DNA of 64,000 nt from Aureimonas sp. AU12 (GTDB lineage: Bacteria > Pseudomonadota > Alphaproteobacteria > Rhizobiales > Rhizobiaceae): assembly GCF_001463705.1 (NCBI RefSeq), contig NZ_BBWH01000022.1, positions 1 through 64,000 on the forward strand, read 5' to 3'. Positions 18,366 through 36,509 of the stretch are shown piece after piece. The translations under genes were made by a program, and so were the position numbers. The notes beneath the pieces were generated by a model. That model saw only the letters and a list, made by a program, of their open reading frames with translations. It did no database searches and was not told the origin of the DNA. Position 1 is the stretch's first letter. Each line of letters opens with the position of its first letter.

Positions 18366-19898
18366 TCAGCCGAGCGCGGGGAGGGGGATGGCGGACGCGG
18401 CCTCCACGACGGCGCCGGAGCGGACGAGTTCGAGCGCGGCCTCGATGTCGGGATGGAAGTGCCGGTCGTCGGTGAGGGTCGGGACGCGCGAGCGCAGAAG
18501 GCGCCGCACGGCTTCCAGTGCGGGGCTGGAGGCGAGCGCCGGGCCGAGGTCGCAGCCCTGCGCCCCCGCCAGAAGCTCGATGGCGATGACGCCGTAGGCG
18601 TTGTCCACCATGGCCAGGAGCCGGCGCGCGCCATGGGCGGCCATGGAGACGTGATCTTCCTGGTTGGCGGAGGTCGGGATGGAATCGACGCTGGCGGGCA
18701 TCGCCCGCTGCTTGTTCTCCGACACGAGCGCCGCCGCGGTGACCTGCGGGATCATGAAACCGGAGTTGAGGCCCGGGCGCGGCGTCAGGAAGGCCGGCAG
18801 GCCGGAGAGGGCGGGATCGACGAGCATGGCGACGCGGCGCTCGGCGATCGATCCGATCTCGCAGACGGCCATGGCGATCATGTCGGCGGCGAACGCCACG
18901 GGTTCGGCGTGGAAATTGCCGCCCGACAGCGCCTCGTCCGTATCGGTGAAGATCAGCGGATTGTCGGAGACACCGTTGGCCTCCGTCTCTAAGGTCGCAG
19001 CGGCCTGGCGCAGGAGGTCGAGAACGGCGCCCATCACCTGCGGCTGGCAGCGCAGGCAGTAGGGGTCCTGAACCCGCGGATCACCGACGCGGTGGGAGTC
19101 GCGGATGGCAGAGCCCGCCATCAGCGCCCGCAGCGCCGCGGCCGTCTCGATCTGTCCGCGATGCCGGCGCAGCGCGTGGATGCGCGGGTCGAAGGGCGTG
19201 TCGGAGCCGCGCGCGGCGTCGGTCGAGAGCGCCCCGGTGATCAGCGCGCCCTGAAACAGGCGCTCGGCCTCGAACAGGCCGGCCAGCGCGTTGGCGGTGG
19301 AGAACTGCGTGCCGTTGAGCAGCGCCAGCCCCTCCTTGGCCGACAGTTCGAGCGGGCGAAGGCCGGCCTGCGCCAGTGCGTCCTGTGCGGGAACGCGCCG
19401 GCCGTCCACGAGAAACTCCCCGACGCCGATCATCGCGGCCGTCATATGCGCGAGCGGCGCCAGATCGCCGGATGCGCCGACCGAGCCCTGGCACGGCACG
19501 ACCGGCACGAGATCCCGCTCTATCAGCGCGCCGAGGAGGTCGACCGTGGCGCGGGTGACGCCCGAGGCGCCCTGTCCGAGGCTCACCAGCTTCAGCGCCA
19601 TCATCAGGCGGCAGACGGCGGCGGGCATGGGGTCGCCGACCCCGGCCGCGTGGCTGAGCACGATGTTGCGCTGGAGCGTGGCGAGGTCTTGCGTGCCGAT
19701 GCGCACGCTCGCGAGTTTTCCAAATCCCGTGTTGATGCCGTAGACCGGCTCGCCCCGCGCCAGGATGCGCGAAACCGCCGCCGCCGCCGCCTCGACCGCC
19801 GGCAGGCAGGCGGGATCGAGCCTCGGCACGGCGCCGCGATAAACGGCGCGCCAGTCGGCGAGGGTGACATGGCCGGGGGTGAGGAGGAGCGGGGTCAT
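18366..19898 (-). CDS. hutH: Histidine ammonia-lyase
   Basis: Deaminates L-histidine to urocanate, the first step of histidine degradation. The 510-residue protein has the MIO-forming Ala-Ser-Gly at 142-144 within [12 protein letters not shown], the start motif [22 protein letters not shown], and the NQEDHVSM block, all diagnostic. The frame is open 26 codons upstream, but ATG 19898 aligns with the family start. It is separated from the other hut enzymes by a transporter and an oxidative operon. A HutC-like box at 20040-20049 lies upstream, so it is probably induced by urocanate. Confidence 0.96.
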
Positions 19899-20039
19899 GG
19901 GTCTCTCCGGACGGAGCAGGGCGAGGGGATGCTGTGGGATCGCCGCCCTTGGCGGGCCGACATCGTCGCGGTCCATCCTCTCGGCACGGGTCCCCGGCAG
20001 CCCGGGTGGAAGCGAAAGGCTATGTCAGGATTTCCATCA

Positions 20040-20049
20040 TGTATAGACA
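20040..20049. promoter_or_regulatory. HutC-type operator upstream of hutH
   Basis: TGTATAGACA matches the core of the HutC operators described in enteric bacteria and pseudomonads (TTGTATAGACAA). It stands about 140 bp upstream of hutH and about 310 bp upstream of the divergent ABC operon, so it may serve hutH chiefly. A related sequence, TGTATAGGCA, occurs before hutF. Confidence 0.65.
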
Positions 20050-20257
20050 TAATCCGCATCGAGGTCGTCGCCTGTGGTGTGTCGGGCACCCCAAAGGGTG
20101 GAACGACAAGGCGTACGGTCCTGATTATGTTAGACCTTGGATCACGATCGATGTCGTCACGAATGGCCCCTGCGGAGTCGCCAGCCGTTCCATCCCCCGT
20201 TGCCGGAATGCGGGCGCAGCTGCCCAGTCGTTGGGCGAAAATTGTTTTGCACAGCAA

Positions 20258-20358: not shown

Positions 20359-21189
20359 ATGAACAAACGCTCGCTTCTCAAGGTCGTCTTCGGGCTGACC
20401 CTGTCGCTTGGCCTGCCGTTGTCGGCCCATGCCGAGGATGCGCTGGCCCGCGTGAAGGCGGCGGGCGTCCTCAAGGTCGGCACCGAGACGGCCTTCGCGC
20501 CGTTCGACTTCATCGACGAGGCGGGCGAGCATGCCGGCCTCAACGTCGATGCCTTCGCGGAGATCGGCAAGGAACTGGGCGTCAAGGTCGAGTGGGTCGA
20601 GCTGCCCTGGGACGGCGTCCTGCCGGGTCTCGAAGCCGGTCAGTTCGACGTCGTCGCCGGTCCCGCCACGATCACCAAGGCCCGTCTCGAGCGCTACCGC
20701 TTCCTGTCGCCGGTGGCCGAAGCCACGGTCGCCCTCCTCAAGGCCAAGGGCGACGAGACCATCACCAAGCCCGAGGACATTGCCGGCAAGCTGGTGGGCG
20801 CCGGCAAGGCGACCTCGCAGCTCGCGCAGGTCCAGGCCTACGGCAAGACGCTGCCGACGCCCGTCGAGACGCGCGAATATGTCGGCTTTAACGAAGCCTA
20901 TGCCGATCTCGCCGCCGGTCGCATCGCGGCCGTCGCCAACTCGCTCCCCAACATCTCCTATGTCGCCGAGAAGCAGCCCGACATCTTCGCGGTGGTGACG
21001 CCGCCCTTCGGCCAGAAGAGCTATTTCGGCTTCATCGGCACCAAGAAGGCCGACGACCAGCCGCTGCTCGACGCGATGCAGGCCGCCCTCGTCAAGATGA
21101 AGGGCGACGGACGCCTCGCCGACATGCAGACGAAGTGGTTCGGCGTCAGCTTCGACACGCCCGACGTCGCTCCCGAACCCGCATTCTGA
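20359..21189 (+). CDS. Amino-acid ABC transporter substrate-binding protein
   Basis: A 276-residue periplasmic binding protein of the polar amino-acid family (SBP_bac_3). The signal peptide is at residues 1-27 (LSAHAED). The fold starts with VLKVGTETAFAPFDFIDEAG and contains WDGVLPGLEAGQFDVVAGPATIT, with a GFNEAYADLAAGRIAAVANS hinge region. GGGAGA sits 6 nt before the ATG. It heads the operon SBP-permease-permease-ATPase-HutC, next to hutH and under a likely HutC-type site, so histidine or urocanate is the probable ligand. Confidence 0.9.
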   Translation: MNKRSLLKVVFGLTLSLGLPLSAHAEDALARVKAAGVLKVGTETAFAPFDFIDEAGEHAGLNVDAFAEIGKELGVKVEWVELPWDGVLPGLEAGQFDVVAGPATITKARLERYRFLSPVAEATVALLKAKGDETITKPEDIAGKLVGAGKATSQLAQVQAYGKTLPTPVETREYVGFNEAYADLAAGRIAAVANSLPNISYVAEKQPDIFAVVTPPFGQKSYFGFIGTKKADDQPLLDAMQAALVKMKGDGRLADMQTKWFGVSFDTPDVAPEPAF

Positions 21190-21197
21190 TCGAGGAT

Positions 21198-21228
21198 CGG
21201 GCCGCGTCCTTCACCGGGGCGCGGCCCG
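21198..21228 (+). terminator. Stem-loop between binding-protein and permease genes
   Basis: CGGGCCGCG pairs with CGCGGCCCG around a 13-base loop and is followed by TTTC. It starts nine bases after the binding-protein stop. It probably protects or attenuates the transcript so that more binding protein than permease is made. Confidence 0.6.
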
Positions 21229-21250
21229 TTTCGCCGTCAAGGATAGTGTC

Positions 21251-21892
21251 ATGTCGATGAGGCTCTTCGAGCTGATGCTGTGGGCGGCGGGAAACACCCT
21301 GCTCCTCAGCCTCGTGTCGATCGCGATCGGCCTTGCGATCGGGCTTCTGGTCTGCGCCGCCCGCCTCTCGCCGAGCGCAGCTTTGCGCTGGCCGGCGGTC
21401 GCCTTCATCAGCTTCTTCCGGGGCGTGCCGCTCCTCGTGCAGCTTCTCCTGATCTACAATCTCCTGCCGGTGCTCGGGCTGATGGTGCCGAGCACCGTCG
21501 CGGCGCTGATCGGCCTGTCGCTCTGCACCGCCGCCTATCAGGCCGAGAACCTTCGCGGCGGCTTCGCCTCCGTGCCCCGAGGCCTTCTCGAGGCCGCCGA
21601 CATGGTGGGCCTCGGCGCCTGGCAGCAGTTCCGCCGGATCCGCGCGCCGATCGCGCTGCGTCTGACCCTGCCCGCCCTCGTCAACGAGGCCATCCTCATT
21701 CTCAAGGCCTCCTCGCTCGTCTCGGTGGTCGGCGTCATCGAGCTGACGCGCATGGCGCAGAACCTCTCGGCCAGCACCTATCGCCCGCTTCTCTTCTACG
21801 CCGTCGCCGGCGGGCTCTATCTGGCGATGAACTGGACCCTGGCCGGCGCCGGTTCGCTCACCGAGCGCCTCGTGAAGACGGGCCGCACATGA
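21251..21892 (+). CDS. Amino-acid ABC transporter permease, HisQ type
   Basis: A 213-residue inner-membrane permease. Its N-terminal region (NTLLLSLVSIAIGLAIGLLV) and RGVPLLVQLLLIYNLLP mark the polar amino-acid HisM/HisQ family. The EAA coupling loop reads EAADMVGLGAWQQFRRIRAP. It ends in an ATGA overlap with the second permease, so the two are translationally coupled and form the membrane heterodimer of the histidine-type importer. Confidence 0.92.
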   Translation: MSMRLFELMLWAAGNTLLLSLVSIAIGLAIGLLVCAARLSPSAALRWPAVAFISFFRGVPLLVQLLLIYNLLPVLGLMVPSTVAALIGLSLCTAAYQAENLRGGFASVPRGLLEAADMVGLGAWQQFRRIRAPIALRLTLPALVNEAILILKASSLVSVVGVIELTRMAQNLSASTYRPLLFYAVAGGLYLAMNWTLAGAGSLTERLVKTGRT

Positions 21893-22551
21893 ATTTCGAC
21901 GTCGCTCTCATCCTCGGCCAGCTGCCCGCCATCCTCTCGGGCCTCTGGCTGACCGTCGGCATCTGGGCCGCCTCGACGATCGGTGGTCTGGTGCTCGGCT
22001 TTCTCGTCGCCACCGTGCGCCAGTTCGGTCCGGGCTGGGCGGGCGCGGCCCTTCGCATCGTCGTCGAGATCCTGCGCGGCACGCCCTTCCTCGTGCAGAT
22101 CTTCCTTCTCTATTTCGGCGGGCCGGCCATCGGCCTGCGGCTCGACCCGATCCCCGCCGGGCTGATCGGCCTGACGATCTACGGCGCGGCCTATTTCTCC
22201 GAGATCTTCCGGGCCGGCTTTCGCGCCATCCCGCCCGGCCATGTCGAGGCCGCCGAGTGCGTCGGCCTCACCCGCAGCCAGATCGTCCTGCGCATTCTCC
22301 TGCCGGAAATGACCATGCTGGTCCTGCCGCAATGCGTGAACATGACCATCCTTCTGGTGAAGGAGACGGCCGTCCTGTCGATCATCACCGTGCCGGAAAT
22401 GACCATGGTGATCGGCGCGATCGGCTCGCAGCAATATGCGTTCGTCGAGGCGATGTTTCTCCTCGCCCTCTTCTACTGGCTCCTGGTGGAGATCTGCGGG
22501 TGGCTCGGCCGCTTCAGCGAACGCCGGCTTTCCAAGTTCAGGTTCTCATGA
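21889..22551 (+). CDS. Amino-acid ABC transporter permease, HisM type
   Basis: A 220-residue permease, the second membrane subunit of the importer. It has the RGTPFLVQIFLLYFGGP motif and coupling loop EAAECVGLTRSQIVLRILLP, with about five hydrophobic segments. The ATG at 21889 overlaps the previous stop. Its own stop overlaps the ATPase start in the same ATGA manner. Confidence 0.92.
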   Translation: MNFDVALILGQLPAILSGLWLTVGIWAASTIGGLVLGFLVATVRQFGPGWAGAALRIVVEILRGTPFLVQIFLLYFGGPAIGLRLDPIPAGLIGLTIYGAAYFSEIFRAGFRAIPPGHVEAAECVGLTRSQIVLRILLPEMTMLVLPQCVNMTILLVKETAVLSIITVPEMTMVIGAIGSQQYAFVEAMFLLALFYWLLVEICGWLGRFSERRLSKFRFS

Positions 22552-23354
22552 CGACGAGCACTCCCGCCATCGCGGTCCGCAACCTCACCAAGCGCTTCGG
22601 CGCGACCGAGGTTCTGAAGGGGCTGGACCTCGAGATCCAGCGCGGCGCCACCACCTGTCTCGTCGGCCCCTCCGGCTCCGGCAAGTCGACGCTGCTGCGC
22701 TGCATGGCCTTCCTCGAGGAGGCGACGAGCGGCACGATCCATGTCAACGGCGCGCCGCTCGGCTTCACCGAGGATGGCAGCGGCCGGCGCGTGCGCCTGC
22801 CGCAATCGAGCATCCGCGAGGTGCGCGGCCATATCGGCATGGTGTTCCAGCAGTTCAATCTCTGGCCGCACATGACGGCGCTCGGCAATGTCTGCGAGGC
22901 GCTGAAGCGGGTGCGCGGGCTGAAGCGCGACGAGGCGGAGGCCAAGGGCATAGAGCAGCTGCGCCATGTCGGCCTCGCCGACCGCGCCGGCCATTATCCC
23001 TCGCAGCTCTCGGGCGGCCAGCAGCAGCGCGTCGCCATCGCCCGGGCCCTGGCGCTGTCGCCGGCCATCATGCTCTTCGACGAGCCGACCTCCTCGCTCG
23101 ACCCGGAGCTGACGGGCGAGGTGCTGAACGTCATGCGCGATCTCGCGACTGAGGGCATGACGATGGTGGTGGTGACGCACGAGATCGGCTTTGCCGCCTC
23201 GGTCGGCCAGAAGATCGCCTTCCTCGACGGCGGCAAGCTGCTGCTCGTCGGGCCGCCCTCGGAGGTCTTCGCCCATCCGCGTCATCCCCGCCTGACGCAG
23301 TTCCTCGAAACCTATCTCGATCGCGGCGCAGCCATGCTGCTCCAGTCCCCGTGA
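22548..23354 (+). CDS. Amino-acid ABC transporter ATP-binding protein, HisP/GlnQ type
   Basis: A 268-residue ATPase with Walker A GPSGSGKST, MVFQQFNLWPHMT (the amino-acid-type Q-loop), signature [15 protein letters not shown] and Walker B IMLFDEPTSSLD. A small insert between Walker A and the Q-loop (GFTEDGSGRRVRLP) is like HisP. It completes the importer and is followed 25 bp later by a HutC-type repressor gene, tying the transporter to histidine control. Confidence 0.93.
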   Translation: MTTSTPAIAVRNLTKRFGATEVLKGLDLEIQRGATTCLVGPSGSGKSTLLRCMAFLEEATSGTIHVNGAPLGFTEDGSGRRVRLPQSSIREVRGHIGMVFQQFNLWPHMTALGNVCEALKRVRGLKRDEAEAKGIEQLRHVGLADRAGHYPSQLSGGQQQRVAIARALALSPAIMLFDEPTSSLDPELTGEVLNVMRDLATEGMTMVVVTHEIGFAASVGQKIAFLDGGKLLLVGPPSEVFAHPRHPRLTQFLETYLDRGAAMLLQSP

Positions 23355-23379: not shown

Positions 23380-24105
23380 ATGACATCGCCCGTACGCCCT
23401 TCGCTGCACCAGACGATCCTGGCGGATCTGCGCGGCCGCATCCTGTCGGGCGAGTGGCCGCCGGGCACGCAGATCCCGTTCGAGCAGGCGCTCGCCACCC
23501 GGTTCGGCTGCTCGCGCATGACGGTCAACAAGGTGATGGGCGAGCTCGTCTCGGCCGGGCTGATCGAGCGCCGGCGCAAGGCCGGCAGCTTCGTGCGCCG
23601 GCCCCAGTCCTATTCCGCGGTGATGGAGATCGCCGACATCCGCCGCGAGGTGGAGACGCTCGGCCTCGCCTACGGGTTCGAGCTGGTGCGCCAGGAGCGT
23701 CGCGAGGCCGGTCCCGCCGACCAGAAGCGGCTGGGCCTGTCGGAGCCCCACCCGATCCTCGCCATCCTCTGCCGCCACTTCGCCGCGCGCCAGCCCTTCT
23801 GCGTCGAGAACCGGCTGATCGACCTCACCGTCGTGCCCGATGCCGCGCAGACGGATTTCGCGGTGGAATCGCCGGGCGCCTGGCTGATGGCGCGCGTGCC
23901 CTGGACGAGCGCCGAGCACACGATCCGGGCGGCGGGCGCCGACAAGCTCGTCGCCTCCGCGCTGCTCGTCGCGCCCGGCACGCCCTGCCTCGTCATCGAC
24001 CGGCGCACCTGGAACTCCGCCAGCAGCGTCACCGCCGTGGAGCTCACCTATCTCGGCGAGGCGCACGAACTCGTCGCCCGCTTCACGCCTTCGCCGGGCG
24101 GCTGA
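23380..24105 (+). CDS. hutC: GntR-family repressor, HutC type (first copy)
   Basis: A 241-residue regulator. The N-terminal GntR winged helix is at about 8-72 (ILSGEWPPGTQIPFEQALAT, then SRMTVNKVMGELVSAGLIER). The UTRA ligand domain follows (PILAILCRHFAARQPFCVEN, VTAVELTYLGEAHELVARFT). The SRMTVNKVM recognition helix and the C-terminal VELTYLG are close to known HutC proteins, which are released from DNA by urocanate. It is the last gene of the amino-acid transporter operon. A second HutC-like gene lies at 29927-30667. Confidence 0.88.
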   Translation: MTSPVRPSLHQTILADLRGRILSGEWPPGTQIPFEQALATRFGCSRMTVNKVMGELVSAGLIERRRKAGSFVRRPQSYSAVMEIADIRREVETLGLAYGFELVRQERREAGPADQKRLGLSEPHPILAILCRHFAARQPFCVENRLIDLTVVPDAAQTDFAVESPGAWLMARVPWTSAEHTIRAAGADKLVASALLVAPGTPCLVIDRRTWNSASSVTAVELTYLGEAHELVARFTPSPGG

Positions 24106-24109
24106 AGCC

Positions 24110-25513
24110 TCAACGCCGCACGATGACGCCCGGGTTCATCGTGCCGTGCGGATCGAGGCTGGCCTTGACCAGCCGGATGAGCGCGAGCTTGCCCGGATCC
24201 GCGGTCGCCTCCAGCGGTCCGATGCGCTGGCTGCCGACGCCGTGTTCGGCCGAGAACGAGCCGCCGCGTTCGCGGATGTCGCGGTAGACGGCGGTCTCGA
24301 CCTTCGCCGCGACATCGGGTTCGAGCGGTCCCGGCCGGTTGAGGATGATGTGCAGATTGCCGTCGGCGAGATGGCCGAAGATCAGCGGCTCGAACGCACC
24401 GTCGATGCGGGCGAGCTCGGGCAGCAGGCGGCCGAGATAGGCGGGGATCTCCGACTGCGGCAGCGACACGTCGAAGGACGGGGCGGCGGGATAGGCATGG
24501 TAGACGAGGTCGGTGTCCTCGCGCAGGCGCCAGAGTTCGCGCTCCTGCCGGCTGGACTGGGCGATGAGGCCGGTCGCTTGTGGAAACCGCTCCAGCACCG
24601 TCTCGAACAGCGTTTCGAAGGCGGCCGGCAGGCTGGCGTCCTCGGCGCCGCCGATCGACAGGAGACCATAGACGGGAGCCGAGCGGTCGATCGCCTCGCT
24701 CCGCCAGCCCAGCGCCTCGGCCGTCAGGTCGAGAAAGGGCCGCCACATCGCCTCGGCGGCGCGCAGGGTCACGCCGGGAAGCGCCAGCGCCAGCTGAATC
24801 ACCTCCAGCACCGCCTCGACCGAGGGCAGGCCGAACAGGGCGGTGGCGCTCGCCTGCGGCAGCGGGTCGAGCTTGAGAACGGCGCGCGTGACGATGCCGA
24901 GCGTGCCCTCGGCGCCGATGACGAGATGCTTGAGGTCGTAGCCCGCCGCGGTCTTCACGACGCGGGTGCAGTCGCTCATCACCGTGCCGTCCGGCAGCAC
25001 GGCCTCCAGCCCGAGGATGCGATGGCGCATGACGCCGTTGCGGAAGGCCATGATGCCACCGGCATTGGTGGAGATCATGCCCCCGATCGTCGCCGTGCCG
25101 CGCGAGGGCAGATCGATGCCGGGCTCCAGACCATGGGCGGCCGCGGCCTCCTGCACTGATTGCAGGCTCGCGCCCGCTCCGGCCGTGACGGTGCGCTCGA
25201 TGGGGTCGAGCCGCTCCACCGCGTTCAATCGCGCCGTCGAGACCACGAGCTGCCCCGGCGCCGAGACCGAGCCGCCGACGAGGCCGGTGCGCCCGCCCTG
25301 CGGGACGATCGAAACGCCCGCTTCGCGGCAGAGGCGTACCAGTGAGGCGACCTCTTCGGTCGAGCCGGGCAGGGCGAGGAGGCCGCTCTTCAGGTTGTTG
25401 CGGTTCCAGCCGGGATCGATCGCGTCCAGGGCGTCGCCGGACTTGACGTGAGCCTGCCCCAAAAGCTGGCGCAGCCGATCCTCGAAGCCGGCGGGAAGCG
25501 GCAGGGCGGTCAT
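24110..25513 (-). CDS. FAD-linked 2-hydroxyacid dehydrogenase (GlcD/D-lactate dehydrogenase family)
   Basis: A 467-residue flavoprotein of the FAD_binding_4 plus FAD-oxidase C-terminal type. The FAD-binding PP-loop is VSIVPQGGRTGLVGGSV, and RGTATIGGMISTNAGGIMAF and HLVIGAEGTLGIVT are typical. The C-terminal GHLADGNLHIILN and SFSAEHGVGSQRIG carry the catalytic/metal His residues. It oxidises a D-2-hydroxyacid to the 2-oxoacid and passes electrons to the membrane chain. It is the last gene of the Rieske-reductase-aminotransferase operon, overlapping the aminotransferase stop by 4 bp. With that enzyme it could convert imidazole-lactate to histidine (inference). Confidence 0.88.
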   Translation of the reverse strand: MTALPLPAGFEDRLRQLLGQAHVKSGDALDAIDPGWNRNNLKSGLLALPGSTEEVASLVRLCREAGVSIVPQGGRTGLVGGSVSAPGQLVVSTARLNAVERLDPIERTVTAGAGASLQSVQEAAAAHGLEPGIDLPSRGTATIGGMISTNAGGIMAFRNGVMRHRILGLEAVLPDGTVMSDCTRVVKTAAGYDLKHLVIGAEGTLGIVTRAVLKLDPLPQASATALFGLPSVEAVLEVIQLALALPGVTLRAAEAMWRPFLDLTAEALGWRSEAIDRSAPVYGLLSIGGAEDASLPAAFETLFETVLERFPQATGLIAQSSRQERELWRLREDTDLVYHAYPAAPSFDVSLPQSEIPAYLGRLLPELARIDGAFEPLIFGHLADGNLHIILNRPGPLEPDVAAKVETAVYRDIRERGGSFSAEHGVGSQRIGPLEATADPGKLALIRLVKASLDPHGTMNPGVIVRR

Positions 25514-26637
25514 CGGGCGGCGCGCCAGCGAACGAGCGCGTCGAGGAACCGTTCGCCGTCGCCCTGCGAGCCGATGGTCACGCGCAGGGAGCGCTCGAAG
25601 CCGCTCTCGCGCCACGGCTTGACGATGATCCCCTCCGCCAGCAGCGCCTCGGCGGCCGCGGCGCTGTCGCCGCCGCAATCGACGAACAGGAAGTTGGTGC
25701 GCGAGGGCGCGGTGCGAAAGCCCGCCGCCGCAAGGCCTTGGGCGAGCGCGGCGCGGCGTGCTTCGAGGCGGCTTACAGAGGCGCGCATCCAGTCCTGGTC
25801 CGCCAGCGCCGCGATCGCGGCGATCTGCGCCGCGCCGTTGACGTTGAACGGCGTCTTGGCCGCGGCAATCGTGCGGGCGAGAGCGGCGTCCGAGGCGATG
25901 GCGTAGCCGACGCGCAGCCCTGCGAGACCGTAGGCCTTGGAGAAGGTGCGCAGGATCACGAAGGGCAGGCCGGCATCGGACAGGATCTGCAAGGCGTCCG
26001 GCAGGGCGCCGCCGCCATATTCGAAATAGGCTTCGTCGAGCACGAAGAGCGTGCCGCGCCCGCATGCCGCCTCGGCGAGCCGCGTCAAGCCGGCTTCATT
26101 CAGTGCGGGGCCGACCGGGTTCCAAGGCGAGGAGAGGAAGACGAGGGCGGGGCCCGTCTCGATCGCCGTGGCCAGCGCGTCGAGGTCGAAGCCGAAATCG
26201 GGCAGCATCGCGATCTTGCGCACCCGCGCCCCGGTGGCGAGCGGCTCGATCTCGTGCAGGCCGAAGCTCGGGGCGACGGTGAGCACCTCGCGTCCCGGCT
26301 CGAGCGCGGCCCGCGAGATGGCGGCGATCATCTCCTCCGACCCGTTGCCGCAAACGATCCGATCGGGCGCAACGTCCAGAAACGAACCGAGCGCGGCGCG
26401 CAGCGCGGTGCAGGCGGGATCGGCGTAGCGCGAGGGATCGTAGCCGGCGAGGGCTTCGAGGACGCGGGGCGAGCAGCCGTCGGGGTTCTCGTTGCTGGCG
26501 AGGCGGGCGATGTCGTGGCGCCCGCTCACGCGCCGCGCGGTTTCGACGCTGAGGCCGGCATTGTAGGCCGGCAAGGCCGCGACGTGGGGATTGAGGCGAA
26601 GGGCGGCACGGGCCGTGGGTTCGAGGACGTCGCTCAC
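25510..26637 (-). CDS. Aminotransferase, class I/II, histidinol-phosphate aminotransferase-like
   Basis: A 375-residue PLP enzyme with the HisC pattern: SNENPDGCSPRVLEAL at the start, FLSSPWNPVG (Asn for PLP), VLDEAYFEYGG, the Lys-bearing RTFSKAYGLAGLRVGY, and C-terminal RVTIGSQGDGERFLDAL. It resembles HisC but sits in a catabolic operon with a 2-hydroxyacid dehydrogenase and an oxygenase. It is therefore more likely a catabolic or salvage transaminase, perhaps acting on imidazole-pyruvate or an aromatic oxoacid, than the biosynthetic enzyme. It lies 45 bp downstream of the reductase gene. Confidence 0.85.
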   Translation of the reverse strand: MSDVLEPTARAALRLNPHVAALPAYNAGLSVETARRVSGRHDIARLASNENPDGCSPRVLEALAGYDPSRYADPACTALRAALGSFLDVAPDRIVCGNGSEEMIAAISRAALEPGREVLTVAPSFGLHEIEPLATGARVRKIAMLPDFGFDLDALATAIETGPALVFLSSPWNPVGPALNEAGLTRLAEAACGRGTLFVLDEAYFEYGGGALPDALQILSDAGLPFVILRTFSKAYGLAGLRVGYAIASDAALARTIAAAKTPFNVNGAAQIAAIAALADQDWMRASVSRLEARRAALAQGLAAAGFRTAPSRTNFLFVDCGGDSAAAAEALLAEGIIVKPWRESGFERSLRVTIGSQGDGERFLDALVRWRAAR

Positions 26638-26682
26638 GGGAGGGCTCCGGTCGGTGGGGTTCGGGAGGATGGCGGGGCGCCA

Positions 26683-27807
26683 TCAGATGTCGAGCGTGAC
26701 GTCGCCTCGCGGGCGCGTGCAGCAGAGGAGGACCTGGCCCGGCGCGGGCTCGTCCAGCGGCTCCTCGGTATAATCCACCTCGCCCGAGAGAAGCGTCGCG
26801 CTGCAGGTCATGCAGACGCCCGAACGGCAGCTGAAGGCCGGCGACAGGCCGGCCGCCTCGGCCAGCTCCAGAAGCGAGCCGGCGCTTGGCGTGAACAGTG
26901 CGGCGCTGCCCGAGCGCGCGAACGCCACCACCGGGCCCGAAGCCGGCTCCGGCTCCGTCATGGTGAGGGCAACCGGTTCGGGTGCCGCCGGGGGCGGCGG
27001 CGATGGGCTGCCGAGAAGCGAGGCGGGACCGAAGAACTCGTAGGCGATGCGCTCCGGCCGGATGCCGAGGCCGAGCAGCGTCTCGTGGAGGGCGCGCATG
27101 AAGGGCGGTGGCCCGCAGAGATAGACGTCGTAGTCGTCGAGCGGCAGGAGCGACTGGAGCACCGCGCGCGTGACGAGACCCGAGGTGGCGTGGCGGGCGC
27201 GCACCTCGTCCTCCGCCGTCGGATTGCGGTAGACGAAGGCGGTGCGGATGCCCGGCCGCTTCGCCGCCAGCGCGTCAACCTCGTCGCCGAGCGCATGGCT
27301 GCGCCCGTCTTCGCAGGCGTGGACGAAATGCACGGGGCGTCCCGGTCGCTCGGCCAACCGGTGCAGCATCGCCAGAAGCGGCGTGATCCCGACGCCGCCC
27401 GACAGGAGAAGCACGGCGCGTTCGCTCGTCTCGTCGAACACGAACTCGCCGCGCGGCGCGCTCGCCCAGACCACGTCGCCGGGCTGGAGCCGATGGTGAA
27501 AGTGGCCCGAGCCCAGCCCCGTGCCGTCCGGCCTCTCCTCGCAGGGCTCGCGCTTGACCGAGATGCGGTAGGTCCGCCCGTCGGAGGGCCCGGAGATCGA
27601 ATAGTTGCGCAAGGCCCAGCCGCCCGGCGAGGCGGCGTCGGGCACGCGGACCGCGAGGAACTGGCCCGGCCGGAACGGGGTCCAGCCGTCCGGCTCGCCC
27701 GGTTCGAGGAGAAAGGAGGTGATGGCCTCGCTTTCGCGCCGGGCCTCGATCAGGCGCAGGCGCCGGAAGCCGGCCGGCCCCACCGGCGTCAACGCCGGAT
27801 CGCTCAT
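26683..27807 (-). CDS. Oxygenase reductase component (PDR/VanB type, FNR plus 2Fe-2S)
   Basis: A 374-residue electron-transfer protein. The N-terminal flavin domain (FRPGQFLAVRVPDAA, LRNYSISGPSDGRTYRISVK) is followed by the NAD domain (LLSGGVGITPLLAMLHRL, VYLCGPPPFMRAL). After a Pro-rich linker comes a plant-type ferredoxin domain with Cys327, Cys332, Cys335 and Cys363 (CRSGVCMTC). It feeds electrons from NAD(P)H to the Rieske oxygenase encoded just upstream, whose 3' end it overlaps by 4 bp. Confidence 0.92.
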   Translation of the reverse strand: MSDPALTPVGPAGFRRLRLIEARRESEAITSFLLEPGEPDGWTPFRPGQFLAVRVPDAASPGGWALRNYSISGPSDGRTYRISVKREPCEERPDGTGLGSGHFHHRLQPGDVVWASAPRGEFVFDETSERAVLLLSGGVGITPLLAMLHRLAERPGRPVHFVHACEDGRSHALGDEVDALAAKRPGIRTAFVYRNPTAEDEVRARHATSGLVTRAVLQSLLPLDDYDVYLCGPPPFMRALHETLLGLGIRPERIAYEFFGPASLLGSPSPPPPAAPEPVALTMTEPEPASGPVVAFARSGSAALFTPSAGSLLELAEAAGLSPAFSCRSGVCMTCSATLLSGEVDYTEEPLDEPAPGQVLLCCTRPRGDVTLDI

Positions 27808-28856
27808 TCCGCGGCGATCGAGGCGGTGGGCGCGAGGGTTGCCCGCTCGGCCTCGATCATCTGCTGCAGCCGCCGCCGGAAGCGCAGCGGGCCGACGTCG
27901 ATCTTCAGGTCGAGATGGGGGGTCTGCCTGTTCGCCATGCCCTGATTGACAGCTTCGAGGACGACGCGGTCCTCCTCGAAGGCACCGCGCACGGAACTGG
28001 CGAACCGCGCCGAGACCTCGGCATCGTCGGGCGCGAAGTTGCGCATCTGGAACCAGTAATATTTCGTGTGGTTCTCGTCGACGGGCGTCATGAAGTTGTA
28101 GCTGTCCATCAGGAACACGTCCTCGTGCAGCGGCTCGCCCTCGCGGTGGCTGTTGGCCGGCACGAAGATCGCCTTGATGATGGCGTTCGAGGGATAGCGC
28201 ACCTCGTAGTGCTGCTTGCGGTCGCAGGGACCAGAGAACTTGAGGAAGGGCGCGTAGAAGGGGGCGGGCTCGGAATCGATCATCCAGCGCCAGACCGTGA
28301 CGCCGTCAGGGGCCACCGTCGTTTCCAGCGGCGTCTCCTCGCAGGCGGAACTGGCGAACGAGCTCTGGTGGACCCAGGCGACGTGCGAGGGGTCGAGCAG
28401 GTTGTCGGTCATGTAGAGATAGTTGCAGGCGAGCACCATCGACTCGCCGCGATTGATCCCCCAGGCCGGGTCGCCCCAGTGGTCGACGGCGAAGATCTCG
28501 GCGGGATCGGCCTTCTCGGCCTCGCCCATCCAGATCCAGAGCAGGCCGTAGCGTTCGTGGATGGGATAGGCGCGCACCCGCGCCACATGCGGAATGCGCT
28601 CGGCGCCGGGCACGCGGGTGCAGGCCCCCGTGCCGTCGAAGGTGAGGCCGTGATAGCCGCACTCGACGTCGTCGCCCTTGATGCGGCCCATGGAGAGCGG
28701 CAGCTTGCGGTGCGGGCAGGCATCCTCGAGGGCCGCCACCGAGCCGTCGCGGCGGCGGTAGAGGACGATGCTCTCGCCGAGCACTCGCACGGGCATGAGA
28801 CCCTCGGCGACCTCGTGCTCCCAAGCCGCGACATACCATGCGTTTCGCAGAAACAT
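27804..28856 (-). CDS. Rieske non-haem iron oxygenase, VanA-like
   Basis: A 350-residue oxygenase. The Rieske ligands are Cys47-x-His49 and Cys66-x2-His69 (ACPHR, ECGYHG). The mononuclear iron motif is LLDPSHVAWVH with His158 and His163. Length and C-terminus fit single-component-alpha demethylases such as vanillate O-demethylase and N-demethylases, not the alpha-beta ring dioxygenases. It is the first gene of a four-gene operon divergent from a LysR regulator. Set inside a histidine-degradation region, it could demethylate or hydroxylate a modified imidazole, but the substrate is not known. Confidence 0.9.
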   Translation of the reverse strand: MFLRNAWYVAAWEHEVAEGLMPVRVLGESIVLYRRRDGSVAALEDACPHRKLPLSMGRIKGDDVECGYHGLTFDGTGACTRVPGAERIPHVARVRAYPIHERYGLLWIWMGEAEKADPAEIFAVDHWGDPAWGINRGESMVLACNYLYMTDNLLDPSHVAWVHQSSFASSACEETPLETTVAPDGVTVWRWMIDSEPAPFYAPFLKFSGPCDRKQHYEVRYPSNAIIKAIFVPANSHREGEPLHEDVFLMDSYNFMTPVDENHTKYYWFQMRNFAPDDAEVSARFASSVRGAFEEDRVVLEAVNQGMANRQTPHLDLKIDVGPLRFRRRLQQMIEAERATLAPTASIAAE

Positions 28857-28936
28857 CGGTCCATCCTCGCTCTTGAATTCAGGCCATTGTCGAAACTTTC
28901 CGCACTGGGGACAACCGGTCGAAAACTGTGCTATCG

Positions 28937-28951
28937 TTTAGTTATTCTAAA
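28937..28951. promoter_or_regulatory. Candidate LysR binding site between divergent genes
   Basis: TTTAG-TTATT-CTAAA is a perfect 15-bp inverted repeat with a T-N11-A core, the standard LysR-box form. It lies 81 bp upstream of the Rieske gene and 30 bp upstream of the LysR gene, placed to control both. Confidence 0.5.
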
Positions 28952-28980
28952 TCCAAACTGCAGCCGATCGACGAGGGTGC

Positions 28981-29907
28981 ATGGCGGGGATCCCGCATCT
29001 CAAGGCTCTACAGGCCTTCGCGGCCTTCGGGACGCAGGGCAGCGTCAGCGGCGCGGCGCGCGAACTCGGCGTCTCGCCGGGCGCCGTCACGCAGCAGCTC
29101 CAGAAGCTGGAAGAGCATCTGGGCCTGGCCCTGATCGAGCGGCAGGGCCGCCACATGGAACTGACGCGCTGGGGCCGGCTGTACCATGCCGAAATCCATG
29201 CGGGGTTCGAGCGGCTGTCCGGGGCAAGCGAGATCGTGCGCCGGGCGCGCGGCGACACGGCGCTCAGCCTCAGCGCGCTCACCTCCGTCCTCGGCAAGTG
29301 GATCGGGCGCGAGATCTTCGAGTGGCGGGCGCTCTGCCCCGGCTCGGTCGTCCAGCTCGTCGGCACGGAGCAGGAGCCGGACCTCGAACGCGACGGGATC
29401 GACTTTCGCATCTGCTACGGGCCGCAGGCGCGCTATCCCCACGCCGTCGACCTCTTTACCGACTGGGCGGTGCCCGCCTGCTCGCCGCGACTGATCGAAG
29501 GACGGCGGCCGACGGAGGGCGCCGACATTTTCGGCTTCCCGCTTCTTCATATCGTCTGGGCCGGCGCGGCCTCGCTGGCGCCGAGCTGGGAGGACTGGGC
29601 GGCGCTGATCGGCGCGCCGCCGGGCCCGATCCCCTGCGATCTCTCCACCATGCTCTCGTCCAGCGCCATCGACGCGGCGGTGGCCGGGCGGGGCTTCGTG
29701 CTGGCGCAGATGTCGATGATCGCCGACGAACTGGACGCGGGCCGGCTCGTCATCCCCTTCGACCATCGGCTGCGGCTGGCCGCGCCCTACCGGCTGGCCT
29801 GGAGCGCGGCCTCGCTGGACAAGCCCTTCGCGCGGGACTTCCATCGCTGGCTGCTCGCCAAGGGCCGCCGGCAGGGCGTCCTCTCGGCGCCCGCACCAAG
29901 CGCCTGA
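28981..29907 (+). CDS. LysR-family regulator (GcvA-like)
   Basis: A 308-residue regulator with the GcvA-subgroup start (IPHLKALQAFAAFGTQGSVS, then ARELGVSPGAVTQQLQKLEE) at residues 3-45 and a substrate-binding-like effector domain containing DFRICYGPQARYPHAV. It is divergent from the Rieske operon across 124 bp that contain a LysR-type palindrome. It probably controls that operon and itself. Its 3' end faces the second HutC gene 20 bp away. Confidence 0.9.
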   Translation: MAGIPHLKALQAFAAFGTQGSVSGAARELGVSPGAVTQQLQKLEEHLGLALIERQGRHMELTRWGRLYHAEIHAGFERLSGASEIVRRARGDTALSLSALTSVLGKWIGREIFEWRALCPGSVVQLVGTEQEPDLERDGIDFRICYGPQARYPHAVDLFTDWAVPACSPRLIEGRRPTEGADIFGFPLLHIVWAGAASLAPSWEDWAALIGAPPGPIPCDLSTMLSSSAIDAAVAGRGFVLAQMSMIADELDAGRLVIPFDHRLRLAAPYRLAWSAASLDKPFARDFHRWLLAKGRRQGVLSAPAPSA

Positions 29908-29926: not shown

Positions 29927-30667
29927 TCAGGACTCGCTTTCCAGACGATAGCGCGTGCCGGGATAGAGCAGCCGGACGAAGGAGACGACCTGTCCGCCGG
30001 ACCAGGTGCGGCGGCGCACGAGGAGGCACGGTTCGCTGCGCGCGATCGACAGCATCCGGCATTCCCAGGGCTGCGCGGTCACCGCCTCGATGAACTGCTC
30101 GGCCCGCTCGATCGGGGCAAGGGCAGACAGGTAGCCGTTGGGCGTCGCCGTCGTGAAATCCTGCCCGGCATAGTCGGGAGCGAGCGCCGGGTTGACGAAG
30201 CGGTCCTCGATCTGGATCGGCAGGTCGCCTTCGCGGTGGACGATGATCGAATGGACGGCGATCGCGCCGAGCGGCAGGTCGAGCGCATCGGCGAGTTCGG
30301 GCCCGCAGGCCTCGCTCTGCAGGAGAAGCACGCTCGCGCCGTGCGCGCCGCCGCGGGCGCGGATCTCGTCGGCGATGTTGGGAACGCTCTGGAACTGCGA
30401 GCTTCGCTTGCGGGCCGCGACGAACGAGCCCTTGCCGCGAATGCGCGTGATGAGCCCCTCGGCCGCCAGCTCGCGCAGCGCCCGGTTCGCCGTCATCCGG
30501 CTGACGCCGAGCGACTTCACCAGTTCGTTCTCGGAGGGGACGCGGTGGCCGGGCGGCCATTCCCCGCTCTCGACGCGCGAGCGCACGTGACGCTTGAGGC
30601 GCGCATAGAGCGGCGCGGACGCATCGGCCGCGTCCGGGGAAGAGGGCTCGGGCGCGCTCGGCGACAT
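29927..30667 (-). CDS. hutC: GntR-family repressor, HutC type (second copy)
   Basis: A 246-residue GntR/UTRA regulator. The helix region is RVESGEWPPGHRVPSENELV and SRMTANRALRELAAEGLITR. The effector domain contains PIQIEDRFVNPALAPDY, QPWECRMLSIARSEPCLLVRRRTW and the C-terminal VSFVRLLYPGTRYRL, all close to HutC. ATG 30667 has AAAGGA five bases before it; the longer frame upstream is not supported. It diverges from hutF with a HutC box between, so it most likely represses hutFIGUD and its own gene until urocanate appears. It is the better candidate for the true HutC. Confidence 0.92.
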   Translation of the reverse strand: MSPSAPEPSSPDAADASAPLYARLKRHVRSRVESGEWPPGHRVPSENELVKSLGVSRMTANRALRELAAEGLITRIRGKGSFVAARKRSSQFQSVPNIADEIRARGGAHGASVLLLQSEACGPELADALDLPLGAIAVHSIIVHREGDLPIQIEDRFVNPALAPDYAGQDFTTATPNGYLSALAPIERAEQFIEAVTAQPWECRMLSIARSEPCLLVRRRTWSGGQVVSFVRLLYPGTRYRLESES

Positions 30668-30685
30668 GCGGTCCTTTGGTGATTG

Positions 30686-30709
30686 GGGGGACAATGGGGG
30701 ACAATGGGG
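30686..30709. repeat. Short tandem repeat in the hutC leader
   Basis: Two copies of GGGGGACAAT (30686-30695 and 30696-30705) plus a partial GGGG form a tiny tandem repeat 19 bp upstream of the second HutC gene, within its untranslated leader. G-runs can slip in replication. Its function, if any, is unknown. Confidence 0.5.
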
Positions 30710-30793
30710 TGCGATGCGGGCGACGATCCGACGAGCGGTTCGCGGTCGAACCTGCCCGATCCCGGCTTGCAATTCCAGAGGTCTTCGTCAATG

Positions 30794-30805
30794 TTGTATA
30801 GGCAA
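30794..30805. promoter_or_regulatory. HutC operator between hutC and hutF
   Basis: TTGTATAGGCAA differs at one position from the HutC core TTGTATAGACAA. It lies 20 bp upstream of hutF and about 127 bp upstream of the divergent hutC, so it should control both. At this distance it would cover the start region of the hutF transcript. Confidence 0.7.
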
Positions 30806-30825: not shown

Positions 30826-32199
30826 ATGCCCCCCCATCGCCGCCGCCTCTTCTGCCCGGTCGCGCTTCTCGCCGATGGCTGGGCGCGGGAGGTCGTGCTG
30901 GAGTTGGACGGGCAGGGCCGCATCGCCTCGATCGACCTCTCGGGCGATGCGGGAGGCTCCGAACGCCTGTCCGGCCCAGTCGTGCCAGCTCTGACGAACC
31001 TTCACTCCCATGCCTTCCAGCGCGCCATGGCGGGGCTGGCGGAAGTGGCGGGCACGGGCGAGGACAGTTTCTGGACGTGGCGCACGGAGATGTACCGCAT
31101 CCTGGCGCTGATGGGGCCGGACGATATCGAGGCGATCGCCGCCAAGCTCTATATGGAACTTCTGAAGGGCGGCTTCGGGCGCGTCGCCGAGTTTCACTAT
31201 CTCCATCACGGACCGGACGGCACGCCCTATGCCGACGCCGCCGAGACCTCGCGGCGCATTCTTGTCGCCGCCGGACGCACCGGCATCGGCCTGACCCATC
31301 TTCCGGTCTTCTACGCCCACGCCAATTTCGGCGGCGCGGCGCCCGGCGAGGGGCAGCGCCCCTTCCTGCACGATGTCGACGGGTTCCTCGCGCTGCTGGA
31401 CGCGCTGGCGCCGGCGTGCCGCGAAGCGGGCGCGACGCTGGGGCTCGCCATCCATTCGCTGCGGGCCGCGACGCCGGGCGAGATGCATGCGATCCTCGGC
31501 CATGAGCGCACGGGCGGGCCGATCCACATCCACGTCGCCGAGCAGGAGCGCGAACTCGCCGACTGCCTCGCCTGGAGCGGACGCCGCCCGGTCGAATGGC
31601 TGCTCGACGAGATGCCGGTGGACGCCCGCTGGTGCGCCATTCACGCCACGCAGATGGACGAGGCCGAGACGGTTCGTCTCGCCCGCTCCGGTGCGGTCGC
31701 CGGCCTCTGCCCGGCGACGGAGGCCAATCTCGGCGACGGTCTCTTTCCGGCGACGGGGTTCCTGGCCGCCGGCGGGCGGTTCGGTATCGGCACCGACAGC
31801 CATGTCGCCACGAGCGTCGCGCAGGAGCTTCGGCTGCTCGAATACGGCCAGAGGCTGCGCGATCGGCGTCGCAACCGGCTGGCCGCCGCGCCGGGTGCCT
31901 CGGTCGGCCGCTCGCTTCTGGACGGCGCGCTCGCCGGCGGGGCGCAGGCGGCGGGTCAGTTCACCCACGGGCTCGGGATCGGCGCCCCCGCAGATCTCCT
32001 CGTTCTCGACGGCACGGAGCCGTTCCTCGCCATGGCGGAGGGGGACGCGATCCTCGATCGCTGGATCTTCGCGCTCGGTGACGGTGCGGTGCGCGACGTG
32101 ATCATCGGCGGGCGCTTCGTCATTCGCGACCACACCCATTCGGCCGAGGCGGAGATCGATGCCGCCTTCGCGCGCACCCTGGCCAAGCTGCGGGCCTGA
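30826..32199 (+). CDS. hutF: Formimidoylglutamate deiminase
   Basis: Converts N-formimino-L-glutamate to N-formyl-L-glutamate and ammonia, a step of the five-enzyme histidine route. The 457-residue amidohydrolase has [18 protein letters not shown] (metal His pair), [35 protein letters not shown] and the catalytic Asp in GTDSHVATS, all specific to HutF. It is the first gene after the HutC operator and leads hutI, hutG, hutU and hutD on the same strand. Confidence 0.95.
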
Positions 32200-32234: not shown

Positions 32235-33446
32235 ATGAAACGACTTCTGACCCATGCGCGCCTCGCGACCCTTGCGGAGGGGACGCAGGGTCTCGGGATC
32301 GTCGAGGACGGCGCGATCCTGATCGAGGCCGGGCGCATCGCCTATGCCGGGCCACGCGCCGGCTTGCCGGCGGTGGAGGGGGCCGAGACGGTGGACCTCG
32401 GCGGCCGCTGGGTGACGCCGGCCCTCATCGACTGCCACACCCATCTCGTGCATGGCGGCAACCGGGCCCGCGAGTTCGAGATGCGCTTGTCGGGCGCGAG
32501 CTACGAGGAGATCGCGCGGGCGGGCGGCGGCATCGTCGCCTCGCTCGCCGCGACACGCGCCCTCTCGGTTCGGGATCTCGCGGACACCGCGCTGCCGCGC
32601 CTCGACGCGCTGCTGGCCGAGGGTGTCTCGACGGTGGAGATCAAGTCCGGCTACGGGCTGGAGATCGAAGCCGAATGCCGGATGCTGGAAGCCGCGCGCC
32701 TCTTGGCGACCCTGCGCCCGGTGCGGATCGCGACGAGCTGGCTCGCCGCCCACGCGACCCCCGCCGAGTACAAGGGCCGCAATGCCGACTATCTCGCCGA
32801 GGTGGCGATCCCCGGCCTTCGCGAGGCGCATCGGCGCGGCCTCGTCGATGCCGTGGACGGGTTCTGCGAGGGCATCGCCTTTTCCGCTGCCGAGATGGAG
32901 GCCGTCTTCGAAGCGGCGCGCGCGCTCGGTCTGCCAGTGAAGCTCCATGCCGAGCAGCTGTCGCATGCCGGCGGCGCGGCGCTGGCGGCCCGCTACGGCG
33001 CGCTCTCGGCCGACCATCTGGAATATGCCGACGCCGAGGATGCCGCGGCCATGGCCGCGTCGGGAACGGTGGCCGTGCTCCTGCCGGGCGCCTACTATTT
33101 CATCCGCGAGACGAAGGCGCCTCCCGTCGAGCTTTTCCGCCGGGCGGGCGTGCCGATGGCGCTGGCGACCGACTGCAACCCCGGTACCTCGCCGCTCACC
33201 TCGCTGCTCCTGACGATGAACATGGGTGCGACGCTCTTCCGCATGACCGTGGAGGAGTGCCTGGCCGCCACGACCCGCGAGGCCGCCCGCGCCCTCGGGC
33301 TCCTGGCCGAGACCGGCACGATCGAGACGGCCAAGTCCGCCGATCTCGCGGTCTGGGATATCGCAAGCCCGGCCGAACTCGTCTACCGCATCGGCTTCAA
33401 CCCATTGCACGCCCGCTACTTCCAGGGAGAGAGAACCGGCCGATGA
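32235..33446 (+). CDS. hutI: Imidazolonepropionase
   Basis: Opens the imidazolone ring of 4-imidazolone-5-propionate to give formiminoglutamate. The 403-residue amidohydrolase shows the metal motif [39 protein letters not shown], the stretch [18 protein letters not shown] and the Asp-bearing [20 protein letters not shown], as in HutI. It starts 36 bp after hutF and overlaps hutG by 4 bp. Confidence 0.96.
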
Positions 33447-34258
33447 CCGTCTTCGAGCTGCACCGGGGCACATCGCCCATCATCCTCGCCTTCCCCCATA
33501 CGGGCACGTTCGTTCCGCCCGAGATCGAGGCACGGCTGAGCGAGGAGGGCCGCGTCCTTCGCGACACCGACTGGCACATCCACCGCCTCTATGACGGGCT
33601 GCTGCCGGGGGCGAGCATCGTGCGCGCCACCTTCCACCGCTACTGCATCGACGCTAACCGCGATCCGGCGGGTGCCAGCCTCTATCCCGGCCAGAACACG
33701 ACGGGGCTGGTGCCCATCACGAATTTTGACGGCGTGTCGATCTGGCGCGAGGGCGAGGAGCCCACCGAGGCCGACATCGCGGAGCGCCTCGCGCGGTTCC
33801 ACGCGCCCTACCACGCGGCGCTGCGAGCCGAGATCGCGCGGGTGCGGGAGGAACACGGCGTCGCCGTGGTCTACGACTGCCATTCCATCCGCGCGCGCGT
33901 GCCGTTCCTCTTCGATGGGCAGCTGCCCGATCTCAACATCGGCACGGATGGCGGGAAGACCTGCGATCCCGCCATCGAGCGCGCCGTGCTGGAAGCCTGC
34001 GTTGATGCGACGGGCTACTCCCACGTCCTGAACGGGCGCTTTCGCGGCGGCTGGACGACGCGGGTCTATGGCGAGCCCGCGCGCGGGGTGAATGCCGTTC
34101 AGATGGAACTCGCGCAGATCTCCCATCTGGCAACGGAGACGCCGCCCTTCGCGCTCGACGAGGTGCGCGCCGCGCGGCTTCGCCCCGTTCTCCAAGCCGT
34201 TTTGACGCGCCTCGAAGCCGTCGCCCTTTCCCTTGCCTTGAAGGACCGTTCCGCATGA
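33443..34258 (+). CDS. hutG: N-formylglutamate deformylase
   Basis: Hydrolyses N-formyl-L-glutamate to glutamate and formate, the last step of the route. The 271-residue protein has [17 protein letters not shown], the [13 protein letters not shown] metal region, [18 protein letters not shown] and [19 protein letters not shown], typical of HutG of the FGase family. This is not the ureohydrolase-fold formimidoylglutamase that shares the hutG name in other bacteria. It is coupled by ATGA overlaps to hutI before and hutU after. Confidence 0.95.
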
Positions 34259-35925: not shown

Positions 35926-36509
35926 GCCGTGGCCGGCTCCTGCGCGCGAGTGATCACCGGCGCATGCTTTGGAAGAACGGCGGCGGCGAGACGATCGAGA
36001 TCGCCGTCCATCCGCCGGGCGCCGACCTTGCCGGGTTCGACTGGCGGATCAGCATGGCGAGCGTCGCCCATGACGGCCCGTTCTCGCGGTTCGAGGGCGT
36101 CGACCGCACGCTCGCCGTTCTCACCGGACACGGAATGGATCTCGAGATCGAAGGGATGGGGCGACGGAGCCTGACGGCGGGGTCCGACCCGCTGGCGTTT
36201 CCGGCGGACGCACCGACGGGCGCCCGGCTTCATGACGGGGCAATTACCGATCTCAACGTGATGACGCGGCGCGGCGTCTGCCGCCATCGTGTTGCGCTGG
36301 CAGAGCTTCGAGCCGGCGTCATCGAGCTTCGCGGTCGCTGGTGCTTCGTGATCCCCCTGCGGGCCTGCCGGATCGCTGTCGATGAGGCGGTGATCGAAGC
36401 CGGCCCCGGCGACGCCGTCGCGTTCGAGGCGCCGGACGGGCGGCCCATCGTCATCGGGGCGGAGGCGCTGGCGGCCTACCTCATCGAGATCGATCCCTCG
36501 GGAGACTGA
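35922..36509 (+). CDS. hutD: HutD-family protein (histidine utilisation governor)
   Basis: A 195-residue cupin-fold protein. HutD is thought to buffer hut expression, perhaps by binding formylglutamate, and is not an enzyme of the route. The family signature [20 protein letters not shown] is at residues 14-34, followed by [21 protein letters not shown] chose GTG 35922, whose GTGA overlaps the hutU stop. It ends the hutFIGUD operon and faces the ABC1 kinase gene tail to tail. Confidence 0.88.

Follow-up and report, generated by a model that had tools for sequence, protein, structure and literature searches.

The 64,000-nucleotide stretch of Aureimonas sp. AU12 analyzed here (contig NZ_BBWH01000022.1, positions 1 to 64,000, hereafter the window) contains a four-gene operon headed by a Rieske non-heme iron oxygenase and set inside a histidine utilization (hut) locus. 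We consider it reasonably probable that this operon is an upstream extension of the hut pathway, carrying out oxidative N-demethylation of methylated histidine-type compounds. An earlier note on this DNA had described four tightly spaced minus-strand genes with a divergent LysR gene, lying between a transporter/hutC unit and hutC-hutFIGUD, and all the genes it named were confirmed. The operon and its divergent regulator gene are as follows.

27804-28856, minus strand: Rieske non-heme iron oxygenase of the VanA/DdmC type (PF00355, 76.4 bits; PF19112 VanA_C, 159.7 bits)
26683-27807, minus strand: FAD-NAD-[2Fe-2S] reductase (Red), the proposed electron donor (PF00970, PF00175, PF00111)
25510-26637, minus strand: HisC-like class I/II aminotransferase (AT), a proposed (methyl)imidazolepyruvate aminotransferase (PF00155)
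24110-25513, minus strand: GlcD-like FAD-linked protein, a proposed (methyl)imidazolelactate dehydrogenase (PF01565 FAD_binding_4, PF02913 FAD-oxidase_C)
28981-29907, plus strand: divergent LysR-type regulator, GcvA-like (PF00126, PF03466)

The Rieske and reductase genes overlap by 4 bp, as do the AT and GlcD-like genes, and in the window 45 bp separate the reductase gene from the AT gene. A transporter and a hutC gene flank the operon on one side, and a second hutC gene with hutF-I-G-U-D on the other. The same gene set was found again in many genomes, sometimes in a changed order, and this recurrence argues that it is no chance grouping.

The clade examined comprised relatives of the Rieske protein at ≥56% identity, 106 loci mostly from Alpha- and Betaproteobacteria. 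These were 80 genome contig loci (the best 80 of at least 541 confirmed relatives), 14 plasmid regions (from 160 records), and 12 loci from an order sample, in which 56 of the 62 matches beyond the window's own were used and six weaker ones omitted. Four deeper loci were added, and 40 VanA-type paralogues with ≤43% identity from the same order sample served as controls. Neighbors were called with 38 reference proteins at hand-set identity thresholds within ~10 kb. A hut enzyme was present near the Rieske gene in 24/106 clade loci (17/80 genome contig, 3/14 plasmid, and 4/12 order-sample loci) and in 0/40 controls. Five further clade loci, and again 0/40 controls, had a hutC-type regulator without hut enzymes. 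A hydrolase of the DUF2817 or AstE type occurred in 62/106 clade loci, 58 of them lacking hut and hutC, compared with 0/40 controls. Overall, 87/106 clade loci had hut, hutC, or a hydrolase near the Rieske gene, and where both 8 kb flanks were present this company was found in 47/51 genome contig loci versus 0/30 full-flank controls. A chance neighborhood was rejected because, under the same thresholds, none of the 40 paralogues had hut, hutC, AT, GlcD, Red, LysR, DUF2817/AstE, frmA, or gfa nearby.

Linkage to hut was scattered over the clade tree. The hut label changed 17 times, at least 12 of these changes being forced by well-supported branches, and it appeared in most subclades; it was absent from the L138-L145 group, the L070/L077 pair, and L136. 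In a Burkholderia/Pseudomonas-type group of 20, it appeared solely as hutC in L117. Locus L137, whose reading frame is broken by a stop, was left out of the tree and of the residue analysis below. Four loci (L133-L135 and L141) have the Rieske gene after the transporter, amid hut genes. L133 reads hutC-I-H-G-F-transporter-Rieske-hutU-hutD, and its Rieske stop and hutU start overlap as ATGA. Pseudorhodobacter L075 gathers hutFIHGU, frmA, gfa, LysR, Rieske, Red, AT, GlcD, DUF2817, and a transporter in 19 kb. Mameliella L123 and Pseudohalocynthiibacter L126 hold the same genes reordered and still adjoining hut. Paralcaligenes L121 has, beside Rieske-Red-hut, an aromatic aminotransferase in place of AT and a distant GlcD homologue in place of GlcD. 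Across genomes, hutU was present in 13/14 clade genomes versus 142/283 others of the same draw. We read the operon as a hut extension because of this scattered linkage across most subclades, the L133 overlap, the L075, L123, L126, and L121 arrangements, and the hutU counts.

Promoter motifs bear on how the operon may be regulated. Three sites were located in the window.

28937-28951: putative LysR box TTTAG-N5-CTAAA in the divergent Rieske/LysR promoter
20039-20050: HutC-like site ATGTATAGACAT between hutH and the transporter
30794-30805: HutC-like site TTGTATAGGCAA between the second hutC and hutF

The exact TTTAG-N5-CTAAA match is unique in the 4.67 Mb assembly. With ≤1 mismatch, the box precedes the Rieske gene in 78/106 clade rows, 1/4 deeper rows, and 1/40 controls, and it appeared in 0.4% of mononucleotide shuffles; L110, which has only 142 bp upstream, was left out of the promoter count. 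The HutC consensus is given as TGTA-N2-TACA in an excerpt of PMC12977541. At ≤2 mismatches, the HutC-like motif had two matches in the window (ATGTATAGACAT and TTGTATAGGCAA), where 0.12 were expected. A betaproteobacterial subclade of eight loci (seven titled Comamonas, Comamonadaceae, or Rhodoferax) has no LysR box. There, exact TTGTMTAGACAA precedes the Rieske gene in 8/8 loci, which amounts to 8/106 clade rows versus 0/40 controls, and a one-mismatch TTGTMTAGACAA motif precedes hutC/hutU in three of the eight. L084, L112, L121, L133, L134, L135, and L141 also have one-mismatch HutC-like copies upstream of hutC, hut, or transporter genes. At ≤1 mismatch, the motif was lacking from 16/32 scanned loci, including the nearest relatives of the window, L036 and L042. 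The shuffle control gave one site in 0.63 Mb. On these patterns, the LysR protein may bind the TTTAG-N5-CTAAA box and HutC the HutC-like sites.

The nearest relatives of the Rieske protein are encoded on a plasmid of Aureimonas sp. AU20 (95% identity) and in A. ureilytica (92% identity). Five named NCBIfam equivalogs matched the Rieske protein at E ≤0.001, none over its cut-off, the top model being 4beta-methylsterol monooxygenase with 94.9 bits against a cut-off of 600; among the families shown, none of the four operon proteins reaches a named equivalog. The AlphaFold2 model (predicted local distance difference test score 87.6) aligned with dicamba O-demethylase DdmC (3gke_A) at Z 38.7 and a root-mean-square deviation of 1.9 Å over 333 residues, and with guaiacol O-demethylase (7qwt) at Z 36.4. 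Lower scores were obtained with SxtT/GxtA (Z 30.6) and with NdmA and NdmB (Z 29.8 and 29.1). H158, H163, D296, and D155 are invariant in the 106 clade rows and 40 controls; by alignment with DdmC, we take the first three to be the mononuclear iron ligands and D155 the bridging Asp. Position 228 distinguishes the clade, with Lys/Arg in 106/106 clade rows, Lys in 4/4 deeper rows, and Asp in 40/40 controls. It aligns with DdmC N230, presumably the contact to the dicamba carboxylate, an equivalence that depends on a single gapped hidden Markov model alignment. The whole clade has Y217, E218, S252, F255, and Q270, and Y253 is kept in 105/106 clade rows, these positions holding mostly other residues in controls. 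The hut-linked and hydrolase-linked members are alike at the pocket positions, so they probably share one substrate.

Formaldehyde-related genes bear on the type of reaction. Near the Rieske gene, frmA and/or gfa were present in 12/106 clade loci (both in 8) and in 0/40 controls, and outside this locus the window's genome encodes a class III formaldehyde dehydrogenase (616.5 bits). These counts, together with O-demethylases being the very nearest folds, make it very unlikely that the enzyme, instead of demethylating a histidine derivative, hydroxylates its imidazole ring or side chain. Such a reaction would have precedent in the similar-fold Rieske enzymes SxtT and GxtA, which hydroxylate C-H bonds.

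The reductase falls below the cut-offs of its NCBIfam families; in clade loci, 73 same-strand adjacent Rieske-Red pairs had a median gap of 1 bp. In L088 (10071-10325) and L112 (9456-9719), a lone small [2Fe-2S] ferredoxin gene lies near the Rieske gene and the reductase was undetected, with Fer2 Pfam support for the ferredoxin in L088 only. The operon AT scored 275.9 bits against the HisC model TIGR01141, just below its cut-off of 276.55. A duplicate of the biosynthetic HisC was considered for this protein and rejected because a separate gene of the genome passes TIGR01141 (286.4 bits) and the operon AT is only 34% identical to it; the same 34% applies to both of the other best TIGR01141 matches of the genome. 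In 55 clade loci, the AT encoded near the Rieske gene shares 42-85% identity with the window AT (≥56% in 52 of these loci). The GlcD-like protein scored 212.4 bits against the glycolate oxidase GlcD model TIGR00387, whose cut-off is 567.9, and neither GlcE nor GlcF is among the four operon genes. Both AT and GlcD were present in 35/80 genome contig loci.

The distribution of complete gene sets speaks for a rival reading. We regard it as quite unlikely that the operon serves O- or N-demethylation of an unrelated aromatic compound or amino acid (vanillate-like or O-methyltyrosine-like), standing beside hut by chance here and usually elsewhere. Among the 38 loci with Red, AT, and GlcD, hut enzymes were present in 6 and a hutC-type regulator only in 3, leaving 29 with neither. 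HisC-type aminotransferases accept aromatic amino acids too, and the one in L121 is an aromatic aminotransferase. Set against this rival are hut linkage recurring in most subclades and in none of the 40 paralogues, the Rieske-hutU overlap in L133, and the exact HutC-like operator in all eight loci of one betaproteobacterial subclade. The earlier note had proposed a search for co-occurrence of the four genes with hut across genomes and had named homologous operons lying mostly away from hut as evidence to the contrary. Co-occurrence was found in part of the clade and in no control; most complete sets did lie away from hut, and 25 of these 29 have a DUF2817/AstE-type hydrolase, in most cases alongside an amino-acid transporter. 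We read such loci away from hut as carrying the same pathway in self-contained form.

Besides the 29 loci and the gapped alignment at position 228, several points weigh against a hut extension. No hut, hutC, or hydrolase was found in 19/106 clade loci, several of which are on short contigs, and Red, AT, or GlcD was undetected in many. The neighbor thresholds were chosen by hand after the arrangements were known, and for Red, LysR, and AT only close relatives were counted; control loci contain distant Red matches (25-28% identity) below threshold. Of the five regulator-only loci, L125 has a match to a GntR/UTRA regulator rather than to the window HutC. The hutU comparison is uncorrected for relatedness, and the sole clade genome without hutU is 61% complete. 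No HutC-like site (≤2 mismatches) precedes the Rieske gene of the window, and weaker HutC-like matches precede control Rieske genes in 1/40 cases at one mismatch and 5/40 at two. Finally, the SxtT/GxtA folds match the Rieske model as well as NdmA does.

Under the hut-extension reading, electrons would pass from NADH through the FAD/[2Fe-2S] reductase to the Rieske cluster and on to the mononuclear iron. The oxygenase would then use O2 to hydroxylate an N-methyl group, with the imidazole ring of a methylhistidine as its most likely position, and the hydroxylated product would break down to formaldehyde and histidine. Histidine would enter the remaining hut steps through HutH, and formaldehyde may be dealt with by frmA/gfa where these adjoin. 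The GlcD-like flavoprotein may oxidize a 2-hydroxy acid, (methyl)imidazolelactate, and the HisC-like AT could aminate the resulting type of 2-oxo acid to (methyl)histidine, letting deaminated forms enter. The methyl group may sit on either ring nitrogen, N-tau or N-pi. The earlier note had suggested that the operon funnels modified imidazoles into hut. This idea is supported in part by the neighborhoods, the HutC-like operator of one subclade, the L133 hutU overlap, the formaldehyde genes, and the basic residue at position 228, the substrate itself being a prediction.

Many relatives have a DUF2817/AstE-type zinc hydrolase along with a transporter, and these would feed the enzyme from N-acylated or dipeptide-bound forms, for example N-acetyl-methylhistidine or anserine-like dipeptides. 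DUF2817 is a Pfam family of unknown function; the hydrolase lies outside the window, in loci of relatives. It gave a weak AstE_AspA match and AstE/M14-type fold matches with low TM scores (0.29-0.51). H67, E70, H222, and E298 are invariant, and from AstE-type enzymes we take them to be zinc/catalytic residues. The AstE-type protein of L126 scored 227 bits against the N-acetyl-diaminobutanoate deacetylase DoeB (cut-off 403). A DUF2817 search of the window's own genome gave no match, and control genomes gave none either, so this result does not support absence. DUF2817 is fused to an ABC transporter ATPase (~650 aa) in L039, L043, L054, L064, L075, and L080. According to an excerpt on fish anserinase, that enzyme takes both N-acetylhistidine and anserine (PMC6271292), which indicates only that these two compounds can share one enzyme. 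L040 and L127 hold a common transporter-DUF2817-Rieske-reductase cassette with mostly identical protein accessions, on Pseudomonas plasmids from meat and spinach salad wash.

The hydrolases and transporters of many relatives suggest that the substrate is an amino acid or its N-acyl form. This bears on whether another methylated or oxidizable histidine relative ending in hut, such as N-methylurocanate, methylated imidazolepropionate, or imidazolelactate, is the real substrate in place of methylhistidine, which we consider unlikely. Hut linkage and the demethylase fold fit such a compound equally, and GlcD and AT would be central if a hydroxy acid were the main food. The amino-acid ABC transporters and DUF2817/AstE-type hydrolases argue otherwise, as do the many Burkholderia-type loci in which AT and GlcD were undetected along with two Pseudomonas plasmids on which Rieske, Red, and DUF2817 remain and AT and GlcD went undetected. 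A CoA transferase with an acyl-CoA dehydrogenase in six loci hints at imidazolepropionate-like acids in favor of this rival. The CaiB-type transferase and the dehydrogenase stand together near the Rieske gene in L049, L053, L039, L069, L073, and L041, amid hut genes in the first two and with hutC in L039 and L069; a CaiB match was found near 1/40 control Rieske genes. This pair could convert imidazolepropionate to urocanate through CoA esters.

Another recurrent companion of the Rieske gene is a PhyH-family 2-oxoglutarate oxygenase, present in L091, L092, L093, L097, L098, L099, L102, L108, L109, L111, L112, L117, L122, and L135. In L135 it sits between the transporter and the Rieske gene inside the hut cluster. 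This oxygenase may act on a different methyl isomer.

The remaining genes of the hut locus in the window are listed below.

18366-19898, minus strand: hutH, histidine ammonia-lyase (TIGR01225, 676.7 bits, cut-off 539)
20359-23354, plus strand: polar amino-acid ABC transporter (binding protein, two permeases, ATPase), probably histidine-type (TIGR01096 is the best family of the binding protein, below its cut-off)
23380-24105, plus strand: hutC repressor 1 (TIGR02018, 279.9 bits, cut-off 220)
29927-30667, minus strand: hutC repressor 2 (TIGR02018, 289.2 bits, cut-off 220, scored on the longer open reading frame 29927-30772)
30826-32199, plus strand: hutF (HutF_N Pfam match)
32235-33446, plus strand: hutI (match to the annotated hutI in L123)
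33443-34258, plus strand: hutG (FGase Pfam match)
34255-35925, plus strand: hutU (TIGR01228)
35964-36509, plus strand: hutD (HutD Pfam match)

The hutH gene, which the earlier note did not mention, is the sole TIGR01225 match across the assembly; for ergothioneine- or hercynine-derived imidazoles, which may be an alternative, TIGR01225 thus gave no second match. The transporter and hutC unit is also present in L036 and L042. Adjoining hutH, positions 17132-18178 encode a relative of an Aureimonas gene annotated as agmatinase speB, and relatives of this gene also lie near hut in L036, L104, L133, and L141.

Taken further, the clade may represent a widespread, often plasmid-borne pathway for methylhistidine and its conjugates (N-acetyl-methylhistidine, anserine-type dipeptides, methylimidazolelactate). 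In it, the oxygenase would be the first Rieske demethylase acting on an amino acid N-methylated at the imidazole ring, and DUF2817 would be the deconjugating hydrolase. We offer this wider proposal tentatively, with somewhat less than even confidence. Methylhistidines and anserine-type dipeptides derive from animal muscle and protein turnover. An excerpt of PMC6271292 partially supports this origin. If the proposal is true, the clade adds an oxidative front end to hut and offers DUF2817 a testable role, and the trait is also plasmid-borne, for example on a Pseudomonas fragi plasmid of a meat isolate. In the open-license literature, we found no report of bacterial ring-methyl removal from methylhistidine, subscription papers lying mostly outside that scope. 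The excerpted part of a HutC regulon survey names hut enzymes, transporters, and the histidine biosynthesis operon, and no Rieske enzyme (PMC5343134).

Compared with known systems, the hut pathway with HutC offers the presumed entry of the product, and one betaproteobacterial subclade has a HutC-like site upstream of its Rieske genes. HisC shares its fold family with the operon AT, whereas the AT lies under the curated cut-off and recurs with the Rieske gene. GlcD shares FAD_binding_4 and FAD-oxidase_C with the operon flavoprotein, which differs in its score far below the cut-off and in having no GlcE/GlcF in the operon. AstE/aspartoacylase and M14 zinc hydrolases resemble the DUF2817 proteins of relatives through the weak AstE_AspA and low-TM fold matches. 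NdmA and NdmB are methylxanthine N-demethylases, Rieske enzymes that take an N-methyl group off a nitrogen heterocycle; their fold is related to that of the window enzyme, but they share only 24% and 21% identity with it and act on purines. DdmC and guaiacol O-demethylase (3gke, 7qwt) have the same fold and conserved iron-ligand positions, and the profile alignment with DdmC-type demethylases spans nearly the whole chain. Unlike these enzymes, to which it is ~32% identical, the window Rieske protein is basic at the DdmC N230 position and is set among hut and amino-acid genes. Rieske demethylation itself is known; what would be new is the predicted substrate class and the operon type.

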